Below are positions 2,485-6,480 of a stretch of DNA of 6,480 nucleotides, piece by piece. Within the stretch, counting starts at the first letter, position 1, and each line of letters starts with the position of its first letter. Source of the stretch: Deltaproteobacteria bacterium RIFOXYA12_FULL_61_11 (GTDB lineage: Bacteria; Bdellovibrionota_F; JAHFAK01; YA12-FULL-61-11); contig MGSU01000278.1 of NCBI GenBank assembly GCA_001799195.1, positions 1-6,480 of the forward strand. The letters are read 5' to 3'. The notes below the pieces were generated by a model. It worked only from the letters and a program-made list of their open reading frames with translations. It had not been told where the DNA came from and did no database searches. The position numbers and the translations under genes are program-made.

Positions 2485-3549
2485 ATGCTGTGGTCCCGGC
2501 CGATCCGGGCATGGGGTATTCCCGGGCTCTTGTTCGCGAGCCTCTTCCTGTGCGATCCGACATGTACCCTGACCCCTCCCCCTCCCCTTCCCCCTCCTCA
2601 CTCCTATCCCGACAACACCCTCACCGCTCCTCCCTCGGGCATGAGCTTCTCGATCCCGCCACTGCCCCGTTCTCTCAGCAAGACGGGGGTGCTCTCGACC
2701 TTGTGGCCCCCCCCAGGAAAACCTCGAGGCCGCAGTCCCCAGCGGCCCTATCCGGACGGAACTTACATCCTCACGACCTTCGGCGGTCCGGACGACGAAC
2801 AACCCACGGCCTGCGGCACCTTCGCCGACGGCACTACCTACTACGCGACCGGGGTCTACGGTTGGGGCTGCGATGCCAAGATCATGATCCGCAATGGCGA
2901 CCGCTGCGTGATCGCCACGGTGTTGGACAATGGTCCCGCCACCTGGGTCGAGGACAACGCCCGGAAATACTGCGGTCTCGGCAGGATCCTCGATGTGTCC
3001 CCCCTCGTCGCGGGGGAACTCTTCGAGCGCATGGCCCTAGGTTGGAGCGACTGCCAAGAGGTCGAGGTCCGGAGGGTCGAGGACGATCTCCCGGAAGGTC
3101 CCTGTACCCTCAGACCCACGGGGATCGCCGACCAACTCGAGGAGCTAGCTCCCAGTACCGGCGAGCAACCCCTCTCGCAGGAAGAACCCGCTGCCGGGGC
3201 TGAACCGGGCAATGAAGCCATTGAAGTCATAGGAATCTACGAGGAAGAATACCCCGGAGAGTCGGAACCTCCGCCCGGAGAAGAAGCTCCGACAGAGGAA
3301 GAACTGTATCCCTCGTCCTCAGAACCTGCCGCAGAAGAGCTGGAAGAAGGAGAAGCAGAGACAGAAGCGGAAGAGGCGGCAGCAATCCCGGAGAGCGACG
3401 AAGACCCCGGGCTCCTCGAACCCCAGGACAATACCGAGGAAACTCTTGAAGAAACCCAGCCGGAGGGCACGCCGGAAGTAGACCAGGACCAACCCGCGGA
3501 GACCGGAGAAGAAGCACCACCCGAGGATGATGGCGAAGCCGCCGAGTAG
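2485..3549 (+). CDS. Exported RlpA-like double-psi beta-barrel protein with a long acidic tail
   Basis: The 354-residue protein has four visible parts. Residues 1-23 form a likely signal peptide (basic N-region, then a hydrophobic run). Cys23 is preceded by Leu rather than Gly/Ala/Ser, so it is a poor lipobox. Residues 29-90 form a Pro-rich linker. Residues 91-198 look like an RlpA/expansin-type double-psi beta-barrel: ACG (109-111), GC (128-129), the IMIRNGDRCVIATVLDNGP segment (Asp148-Pro151), then ILDVSPLVAGELF with Asp170. Six cysteines (110, 129, 141, 163, 190, 207) suggest disulfides in an oxidising compartment. Residues 211-354 are Glu/Pro/Ala-rich, with 43 Glu and 8 Asp and no Lys, Arg or His. 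RlpA proteins bind or cleave septal peptidoglycan, and expansin-like relatives loosen cell-wall polymers. I see no SPOR domain and cannot confirm catalytic residues, so enzymatic activity is uncertain. The gene diverges from lpd, and glgP follows 88 bp downstream. Confidence 0.85.
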   Translation: MLWSRPIRAWGIPGLLFASLFLCDPTCTLTPPPPLPPPHSYPDNTLTAPPSGMSFSIPPLPRSLSKTGVLSTLWPPPGKPRGRSPQRPYPDGTYILTTFGGPDDEQPTACGTFADGTTYYATGVYGWGCDAKIMIRNGDRCVIATVLDNGPATWVEDNARKYCGLGRILDVSPLVAGELFERMALGWSDCQEVEVRRVEDDLPEGPCTLRPTGIADQLEELAPSTGEQPLSQEEPAAGAEPGNEAIEVIGIYEEEYPGESEPPPGEEAPTEEELYPSSSEPAAEELEEGEAETEAEEAAAIPESDEDPGLLEPQDNTEETLEETQPEGTPEVDQDQPAETGEEAPPEDDGEAAE

Positions 3550-3583: not shown

Positions 3584-3624
3584 CACTCACCTCCCGAGAG
3601 GCCCGACCATCTCCCACCCTATCC

Positions 3625-3630
3625 AGGAAG
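3625..3630 (+). promoter_or_regulatory. Ribosome binding site that sets the glgP start
   Basis: AGGAAG lies 7 nt before the ATG at 3638. The longer in-frame reading from 3527 would overlap the previous gene by 23 bp and would add 37 residues of low-complexity Pro/Arg-rich sequence, so 3638 is the better start. Confidence 0.7.
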
Positions 3631-3637
3631 CACGACC

Positions 3638-6199
3638 ATGACCCGCGATACCCAGGCCGCACCACCTCGTTCCAAAGGTTCTTCCTCTACGGCAGGCCGG
3701 CGCGCGCGCTCCGGTTGCGGCGATAACTCCACCTGTCACTGCCGAGTCCCGGACGCTGCAACCCTGCAACGAGAGATCCTGGACAACCTGCGCTACGAGT
3801 TGGCTCGTTTCCCCGAGGTCGCCACCAACTACGACTGGTATCTCTCGCTCGCCGCGACCATCCGCCACCTCCTGCTCGACCGCTGGACCTCGACCGCTCA
3901 GACCTACCTGCAACGAGAGGCCCGCACCGTCTGCTACCTCTCGGCCGAATTCATGCTCGGTCCCCAACTCCGCAACAACCTGCTCTGCCTCGGGCTCGAG
4001 GGACCGGTCCGCGAGGCCCTCACCGGTCTCGGTCTGGACCTCGAGACCCTGGCCGAACTCGAGGAAGAGCCGGGGCTGGGCAACGGTGGCCTGGGTCGGC
4101 TGGCCGCTTGCTACCTCGATTCCCTAGCCACGCTCGACCTCCCCACCATCGGTTACGGTCTGCGGTACCAGTACGGGATCTTCGACCAGCGCATCGAGGA
4201 CGGCTGGCAGGTCGAAGAGAGCGACACCTGGCTTAAACTGGGCAATCCCTGGGAGGTGCGACGTCCCGACGTGGTCTATACCGTATCCTTCGGGGGACAC
4301 ACGCTCTCCGGCCATGACGAACGCGGCCGTTACCGGGTCCGCTGGCTCCCCCAACGGACGGTCCGCGTGCGCGCCTACGACACCCCCATCCTGGGCTACC
4401 GCACCAATACCGCCTGCCTGTTGCGGCTCTGGACGGCGGAAGGGTATCAAGCCTTCAACCTCGCGGCCTTCAACCACGGGGACTTCTGGGGAGCCGTCAT
4501 CGAGCAGACCGCGGCCGAGAACCTGACCAAGGTCCTCTACCCGAACGACAAGCAAGCTTCGGGCAAGCTCCTGCGCTTACAACAGCAATACCTCCTGGTC
4601 TCCTGCGCCCTCCAGGACATGGTCCGCATCCACCTGCAGCGGGCCAGCAACCTCGACGGCTTCCATCGCAAATACGCGGTACAACTCAACGACACCCATC
4701 CTTCTCTCGCCATTCCCGAATTGATGCACATTCTCCTCGATCACCACGGCTACACCTGGGAAGCTGCCTGGGCCATCACCGAACGCACCTTTGCCTACAC
4801 CAATCACACCCTCCTTCCCGAGGCCCTGGAATGCTGGTCCTTGGAATTGTTCGCGCAGGTCCTGCCGCGACACCTCGAGATCATCTACGAATTGAACCGT
4901 CGCTTCCTGGCTCAGGTCCGAGCAGGAGGAGCCGACGAGGCTCGTATCCAGCGCCTCTCGCTGATCGACGAGAGCGGTGAGCGTTCCTTGCGGATGGCCA
5001 ACCTGGCCACCGTGGGCAGCCACACCGTCAATGGCGTTGCCGCTCTGCACAGCTCCTTGCTCACCAGCGACTTGATGCAGGACTTCTTCGCCCTGTGGCC
5101 GGAGAAGTTCACCAACGTCACCAACGGCGTCAGCCCGCGCCGTTTCGTCGGGCTCTGCAATCCCGGCCTGACCGCCCTGATCACCGAGGTCATCGGCGAG
5201 GGGTGGTTGGCCAGGCTGGAACGCTTGCGCGACCTCGAGCCCCTGGCCCGCGATCGGAACTTCCAAGAGGCCTTCGCCAGGGTCAAACTCCTCAATAAAC
5301 AGGCGTTGGCCGAACGGGTCCGGTCCGTCACCGGGGCCGTCATTGACCCCCACAGCCTGCTCGACGTGCAGATCAAGCGCATTCACGAGTACAAACGGCA
5401 GCACCTCAACATCCTCCACGTCATCGCCCGTTACTTGCGGCTGCGACAAGATCCCTCGTACGACGCGGCCCCCCGTACGATCCTGTTCGCGGGGAAGGCC
5501 GCGCCCGGCTATGCCATGGCTCGCCTGATCATCAAACTGATCCACGCCGTGGCCGAAGTCGTCAACAACGACCCCCTCACCCGGGACCGGCTCAAGGTGG
5601 TGTTCTACCCTGACTTCAACGTCAAGAACGCCGAGCACATCTACCCGGCCGCCGAAGTGTCGGAACAACTCTCCACGGCGGGGAAGGAAGCCTCGGGCAC
5701 CGGGAATATGAAATTGGCGCTCAACGGCGCCCTGACCCTCGGGACTCTCGACGGCGCGAATGTCGAGATCCGCGAGCAGGTCGGTGCCGAGAATTTCTAC
5801 CTCTTTGGCTACAACGTCGACGAAATCAAAGCCCTGCGCGCCGAGGGTTATCGTCCCTGGGAACTGGTCTCTCAAGACCCCGAACTCGCGGCGGTGCTCC
5901 TGACCCTGCACGACGGGACCTTCGCGCCGAGGGATTCACAACTCTTCCAACCGATCCTGGACAGCCTGGTCGGCTGGGACGAATTCATGGTCCTCGCCGA
6001 CTTCCGCTCCCTCCTCCGGACTCAGGAACGCATCGACGAGGATTGGCGCAACCACAACGATTGGAGCCGCCGGGCCATCCTCAACGTGGCCCGCATGGGC
6101 ATGTTCTCCTCGGACCGGGCCATCGCCGAGTACGCCCAGCGCATCTGGCGGATCGAGCCCCAGGAGGTCCCCCTGTGCCCGCCCGAGGGGCATACCTGA
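3638..6199 (+). CDS. glgP: Glycogen/starch (alpha-glucan) phosphorylase, GT35 family
   Basis: This cytoplasmic PLP enzyme releases glucose-1-phosphate from the non-reducing ends of alpha-1,4-glucan using phosphate. From the ATG at 3638 it has 853 residues, slightly longer than typical bacterial members (about 800-840). The extra length is an N-terminal segment of about 40 residues rich in Ser, Arg and Cys (GCGDNSTCHC, Cys27, 33 and 35). Family motifs in order are: TVCYLSAEFMLG (97-108); the glycine loop GLGNGGLGRLAACYLDS (146-162); NPWE (203-206); LNDTHP (350-355); TNHTLLPEALE with His390, matching the catalytic His of muscle phosphorylase; KRIHEYKRQ (580-588) with Arg581 and Lys586 in the phosphate site; and EASGTGNMK, with Lys692 as the PLP Schiff-base lysine. 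All key residues are present, so it should be active. The regulatory Ser14 region of animal enzymes is absent. The symbol could equally be malP, since glycogen versus maltodextrin preference cannot be read from sequence. No other glg gene is in the window. Part of this gene (5746-5832) is repeated at the right edge. Confidence 0.96.
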   Translation: MTRDTQAAPPRSKGSSSTAGRRARSGCGDNSTCHCRVPDAATLQREILDNLRYELARFPEVATNYDWYLSLAATIRHLLLDRWTSTAQTYLQREARTVCYLSAEFMLGPQLRNNLLCLGLEGPVREALTGLGLDLETLAELEEEPGLGNGGLGRLAACYLDSLATLDLPTIGYGLRYQYGIFDQRIEDGWQVEESDTWLKLGNPWEVRRPDVVYTVSFGGHTLSGHDERGRYRVRWLPQRTVRVRAYDTPILGYRTNTACLLRLWTAEGYQAFNLAAFNHGDFWGAVIEQTAAENLTKVLYPNDKQASGKLLRLQQQYLLVSCALQDMVRIHLQRASNLDGFHRKYAVQLNDTHPSLAIPELMHILLDHHGYTWEAAWAITERTFAYTNHTLLPEALECWSLELFAQVLPRHLEIIYELNRRFLAQVRAGGADEARIQRLSLIDESGERSLRMANLATVGSHTVNGVAALHSSLLTSDLMQDFFALWPEKFTNVTNGVSPRRFVGLCNPGLTALITEVIGEGWLARLERLRDLEPLARDRNFQEAFARVKLLNKQALAERVRSVTGAVIDPHSLLDVQIKRIHEYKRQHLNILHVIARYLRLRQDPSYDAAPRTILFAGKAAPGYAMARLIIKLIHAVAEVVNNDPLTRDRLKVVFYPDFNVKNAEHIYPAAEVSEQLSTAGKEASGTGNMKLALNGALTLGTLDGANVEIREQVGAENFYLFGYNVDEIKALRAEGYRPWELVSQDPELAAVLLTLHDGTFAPRDSQLFQPILDSLVGWDEFMVLADFRSLLRTQERIDEDWRNHNDWSRRAILNVARMGMFSSDRAIAEYAQRIWRIEPQEVPLCPPEGHT
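5746..5832 (+). repeat. Direct repeat, copy 1 (inside glgP)
   Basis: This stretch encodes residues just after the PLP-lysine motif of the phosphorylase, from the middle of GTLDGANVE to VDEIKA. It recurs 648 bp downstream at 6394-6480 with one difference in 87 bases (C5801 versus T6449). Confidence 0.95.
6183..6194 (+). repeat. 12-bp direct repeat, copy 1 (end of glgP)
   Basis: CCGAGGGGCATA covers the last codons of glgP. The same 12 bases recur at 6256-6267, 73 bp downstream. The flanks do not match, so this may be a remnant of a local duplication or chance. Confidence 0.5.
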
Positions 6200-6393
6200 C
6201 CCCGCGGGGACCCCTTTCGCTCTCTTGAGGACCAGGATCCCTTTTGGGTTCATGACCGAGGGGCATAGCAGATTCGAGGCCTAGCGGTCGGTATACATAG
6301 GATCTTGAACTTCTTCAGAAACCGAAATTCCTCCCGCGTCAGGATTCGCGAAGCCGATTCAATCCTTCGAAGTCCGACCTGGGATTGGATTGT
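6200..6393 (+). other. Non-coding gap between glgP and its partial duplicate
   Basis: No convincing gene is present. The stretch begins with the palindrome CCCCGCGGGG (6200-6209), which has no loop and no following T-run, so it is not a normal intrinsic terminator. GC falls to about 50% over 6285-6393 and to about 35% over 6291-6330, well below the flanking gene. The phosphorylase reading frame of the downstream duplicate stays open upstream to a TAG at 6266-6268, but that upstream part does not resemble phosphorylase. Confidence 0.7.
6256..6267 (+). repeat. 12-bp direct repeat, copy 2 (downstream of glgP)
   Basis: CCGAGGGGCATA repeats the sequence at the glgP 3' end (6183-6194). It lies in the non-coding gap before the larger repeat. 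Confidence 0.5.
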
Positions 6394-6480
6394 TCTCGAC
6401 GGCGCGAATGTCGAGATCCGCGAGCAGGTCGGTGCCGAGAATTTCTACTTCTTTGGCTACAACGTCGACGAAATCAAAGC
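6394..6480 (+). repeat. Direct repeat, copy 2: partial duplicate of glgP, cut by the window edge
   Basis: The last 87 bases match glgP positions 5746-5832 at 86 sites. The single difference (T6449 for C5801) changes a Leu codon to Phe, giving FYFFGYN instead of FYLFGYN. Similarity begins abruptly at 6394; the preceding bases are unrelated to the sequence before copy 1, so the PLP-lysine motif is missing from this copy. It continues to the end of the window. It could be a truncated pseudogene, the 3' part of a rearranged second phosphorylase gene, or a false join at a contig end. As seen, it cannot encode a functional phosphorylase. Confidence 0.9.

Follow-up and report, generated by a model that had tools for sequence, protein, structure and literature searches.

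The right end of contig C278 contains a partial second copy of glgP, which starts just outside the end of a mobile element remnant. The window, that is, the whole stretch of 6,480 nucleotides which we have analyzed, is exactly the complete contig (6480 bp), so the right edge of the glgP copy is also the contig edge. The repeat is really present in the sequence as assembled, and a chance origin is excluded. We consider the chances to be about even that it represents a real partial duplication of glgP at this contig end, probably an ordinary one adjoining the element remnant. The genome contains 4.64 Mb in 342 contigs, is 87% complete and has a contamination of 1.23%. The features discussed below are the following (LE, left end of the element):

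3638..6199, + strand: glgP, glycogen/starch/alpha-glucan phosphorylase (Pfam, TIGR02093, list of open reading frames; the open frame could start at 3527)
5746..5832, + strand: repeated glgP segment (86/87 identity with 6394-6480, spacing 648 bp)
6114..6192, + strand: glgP 3' segment with a second copy at C38:144-222
6247..6391, - strand: LE remnant of an IS200-like/RAYT element (alignment and nhmmer with 10 other copies; dispersed copies; Y1_Tnp context)
6365..6386, + strand: terminal 22-nt LE motif CTTCGAAGTCCGACCTGGGATT
6394..6480, + strand: partial second glgP copy, up to the contig end, with neither a start nor a stop codon of its own (repeat and own-genome searches, contig end)

The repeated segment and the adjoining left end

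The glgP protein matches the Pfam Phosphorylase family with 1041.7 bits and TIGR02093 with 1124 bits (cutoff 553). Another gene of the window, at 2485-3549, codes for a 354 amino acid protein which has no Pfam match and ends in a long acidic tail, rich in Glu and Pro, at the C-terminal end. The nearest genome compared, which shares only the class, contains neither a full glgP match nor the LE tip motif.

Both copies of the 87-nt segment have the same orientation and are 99% identical. The own-genome search (4.64 Mb) detects the pair with E=1.2e-37 and finds no third copy. Their sole mismatch, C5801 to T6449, is in the first base of codon 722 (numbered from the ATG at 3638) and changes CTC to TTC, Leu722 to Phe. 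The left edge of the second copy is abrupt: No homology is found from 6393 and 5745 leftwards, and the 6393|5746 junction shows no microhomology on its left side. Since the copy begins within codon 703 and lacks a start codon and the upstream 700 codons, we would not expect it to encode an enzyme. The preliminary description had already reported the near-perfect repeat at 648 bp, its abrupt left boundary, the absence of a right boundary and the missense difference, and all of this is borne out by our searches. It missed, on the other hand, the mobile element LE which defines the left boundary.

This LE remnant occupies an intergenic stretch, and diverged copies are dispersed elsewhere in the genome. 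The transposase of the window copy would read leftwards, and its gene is reduced to the ATG-AAC start. With up to three mismatches, the tip motif is found at 20 places in the genome, and its reversed sequence, used as a control, at none. The glgP copy follows the tip motif of the window at a distance of 7 nt. In three complete copies (C5, C341 and C295) the LE repeat is directly upstream of a Y1_Tnp (IS200-like) transposase gene. The gene beside the C5 copy matches PF01797 (Y1_Tnp) with 39.6 bits (gathering threshold 23), and there are dozens of tnpA matches in the genome, many of them fragments. The NCBIfam models REP_Tyr_transpos (29.3 bits, cutoff 80) and transpos_IS200 (20.9 bits, cutoff 55) both match below their cutoffs, so we have named the element RAYT/IS200-like. 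As regards a possible hairpin in the conserved end, folding gives z values of -2.5 and -3.4 for the C5 end and -1.1 for the window end.

The similarity among the LE copies compared is 70-93%, and no exact match between them and the window LE is longer than 28 nt. For the 6240-6400 region as a whole, the longest exact match to other sequence of the genome is 28 nt, in a comparison which covered a minority of the genome. A misjoin through a shared LE word, one of the candidates considered, was rejected because of this length: In the sequence compared it makes a graph misjoin at this point unlikely. We have also looked for a pseudo right end at glgP 5746. The right ends of four copies share only GAGTCC (6 nt) with this site, and we have given it no weight. 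No right-end-like sequence is recognised there, so cleavage by a transposase at 5746 would be putative.

Gene fragments and short duplications outside other left ends

When nearly all of glgP (3600-6243) is compared with its own genome, the only other match is C38:144-222, which is 91% identical to window positions 6114-6192 (7 differences in 79, E=2.4e-24) and ends 7 nt short of the end of the stop codon. A third copy of glgP was sought and, apart from this fragment, none was found. The C38 fragment is 21 nt outside another LE of the same family (C38:33-123), and the two are situated at the left contig end, ahead of a sigma-54-dependent regulator gene. Thus, the only two glgP fragments detected outside the gene in 4.64 Mb are both next to an LE, at 7 and 21 nt. 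The fragments at the right end of C278 and the left end of C38 are compatible in order and orientation, and they correspond to separate parts of glgP.

The divergence from glgP is 1/87 for the C278 fragment and 7/79 for that of C38 (Fisher p = 0.028). The duplication had been described as very recent: This agrees with the 99% segment, and the 91% segment speaks against it. A single event would require either gene conversion or two ages, so the difference appears to be a mild argument against the origin of both fragments in one event of the same age.

A parallel case is found in another gene, which we call SDR-like from its translation alone (loci L030, C41:282-513, and L235, C118:1716-3082). 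The intact gene is at C118:1928-3082(-). Its last 178 nt, including the stop codon, are repeated at C41:335-513 with 99% identity and one deleted base. Contig C41 starts within a tnpA gene and continues through the LE into this fragment, which begins 5 nt past a second copy of the tip motif and is located in the contig interior. A 3' remnant of tnpA is also found about 90 nt past the stop codon of the intact gene in C118. Duplicated 3' gene fragments directly outside an LE are therefore not restricted to glgP. No further near-identical gene fragments were found when the flanks of most other LE copies were compared with about 1.7 Mb of sampled genome.

Short tandem duplications are also present at the LE tips in C5, C295, C7, C38, C56, C194, C266, C41 and C141 (loci L023, L026, L028, L029, L035, L038, L041, L030 and L036). 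They repeat neighbouring sequence, mostly with an offset of 10-15 nt; the units at C41 and C141 have 27 and 54 nt. Their sequence varies between copies, along with that of the adjoining target. The mean longest repeat at these tips is 7.2 nt, against 5.3 nt in permuted pairs of ends and flanks, and none of 2000 permutations reached 7.2.

Contig ends and possible origins of the glgP copy

Several other contigs of this assembly end in 82-95 nt which are shared exactly with another contig end, in the orientation expected if two contigs enter the same repeat and then stop. IDBA-UD and metaSPAdes are known to keep non-unique sequence at contig ends (PMC7111523). A contig which stops after 87 nt of repeated sequence is therefore typical here, and this suggests that the glgP copy continues. 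The preliminary description left the choice between a duplication and a misjoin at a contig end, and took the coincidence of the window end with a contig end, if combined with single-copy coverage over 5746-5832, as a sign of artefact. The coincidence exists, yet it does not settle the question, because the assembly regularly keeps non-unique ends of this length. A general assembly artefact was also considered and rejected: Among 214 ends of 122 contigs, including that of C278, a repeat of the same contig (at least 97% identity over 40 or more nt) is found at no other end.

Many contigs break within copies of tnpA. At least 10 tnpA (Y1) matches begin no more than 10 nt from the start of a contig, and this family is probably a main reason why contigs break in this genome. 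A second dispersed family, with a size of about 100-190 nt and palindromic cores similar to GTGGGGGTCCCCCGTCGGCGCCACCCC, is REP/BIME-like and often found at contig ends. It is present in C3, C36, C40, C43, C56, C191 and others (for example L139, L169, L173, L176 and L208).

If the duplication is real, C278 would leave the LE remnant at 6393 and enter a partial, non-functional glgP copy, and the assembler would have halted after 87 bases because the sequence was no longer unique. The copy would continue beyond C278, be interrupted by a further element of this family and resume at C38 as the last 79 nt. There would then be one partial copy, extending from 5746 to about 6192 with an element at 6113/6114, and C278 and C38 would be neighbours. 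As to its origin, a duplication with one breakpoint at the LE is the most likely. The 6393|5746 junction is what a tandem duplication of the 648 bp from 5746 to 6393 would be expected to give. The same junction would also be expected from a single-stranded circle formed by the Y1 transposase between the LE and a fortuitous glgP site. The adjacency of C278 and C38, the continuation of the copy and the participation of the transposase are what we infer from this arrangement.

The second glgP fragment, at the C38 end which would face C278, and the SDR-like parallel favour a real duplication, and the coincidence of the breakpoint with an element tip at three fragments makes the involvement of the element plausible. 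Other observations point in the opposite direction. The copy touches the contig end, which judging from the sequence would count against a duplication, and so does the absence of a same-contig terminal copy at all the other ends surveyed. A graph with equal coverage would also be expected to break glgP at 5746, where the gene is assembled straight through, unbroken. Furthermore, with a long word size a single mismatch should keep the two copies separate, so the stop after 87 nt could equally be the tail of a single read.

This last point leads to an artefact of the library or assembly, which we regard as possible but somewhat doubtful: One or a few chimeric reads may have joined the LE remnant to a site 648 bp upstream in the same molecule, the contig end being extended by the remainder of the read and the single mismatch being a read error. 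The copy and the contig do stop at the same base, the length of 87 nt fits what would be left of a single short read, the mismatch falls in the second half of the copy, and a single case in 214 sampled contig ends suggests a singular event. Against a chimeric read, the breakpoint is 7 nt from an element tip, where the gene fragment copies of C38 and C41 also begin. The presence in the assembly of a second, diverged glgP fragment and the lack of microhomology on the left side of the junction also disagree with it. A mixture of strains appears unlikely. An element of the same family might be inserted in glgP at 5745/5746 in another strain, with its LE facing right, and the assembler might have gone from the resident LE remnant into the flank of the other strain. 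Such an insertion would produce a junction between the LE and glgP 5746, the change from Leu to Phe would be a strain difference, and contig breaks within tnpA copies are frequent, as indicated above. Nevertheless, the LE copies compared are too different from the window LE: 28 nt are too few for a de Bruijn misjoin, unless there is an unassembled near-identical copy. The figure of 1.23% given for the contamination of this assembled genome also argues against a mixture.

A broader proposal goes beyond a real duplication of glgP: The RAYT/IS200-like transposase might generate duplications of neighbouring gene 3' ends in this lineage. Cleavage at the LE and at a fortuitous second site would give circles or tandem copies. 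The result would be 3' gene fragments just outside the LE (glgP twice, the SDR-like gene once) and tandem repeats of 10-54 nt elsewhere. We consider this quite improbable.

Significance and comparison with known systems

In the case of a real duplication, the result is a small partial copy, probably without function, which could recombine with glgP and alter the 3' end of the gene. This genome would then have at least two cases, that of glgP included, of a duplicated gene fragment whose edge coincides exactly with the end of a Y1-transposase element, and this would give a testable hint at side reactions of Y1 transposases. If it is an artefact, the last 90 nt or so of short-read contigs should stay unannotated.

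The element resembles RAYT/TnpA-REP and the Y1 HUH transposases of IS200/IS605 (PMC2817692, PMC6006769, PMC8266576) in its dispersed Y1_Tnp gene copies, in its GNHQHLL (HUH) motif and in its conserved subterminal sequence. As in RAYT systems, this genome is also rich in REP-like palindromic repeats. On the other hand, the protein is under the NCBIfam cutoffs for both equivalogs. Another difference is the presence, outside some LEs, of gene 3' fragments or tandem duplications of 10-54 nt, which we have not found in the text of PMC6006769. The contig end is similar to those described for short-read metagenomes (PMC7111523): 87 nt are repeated, compared with 82-95 nt at other ends of this assembly. 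In this case, however, the other copy is in the same contig and has a one-base difference. Finally, the direct orientation, the 648-bp spacing and the partial coding copy without a start codon are also found in ordinary partial tandem gene duplications of bacteria; the difference is that one breakpoint coincides here with the end of a mobile element.
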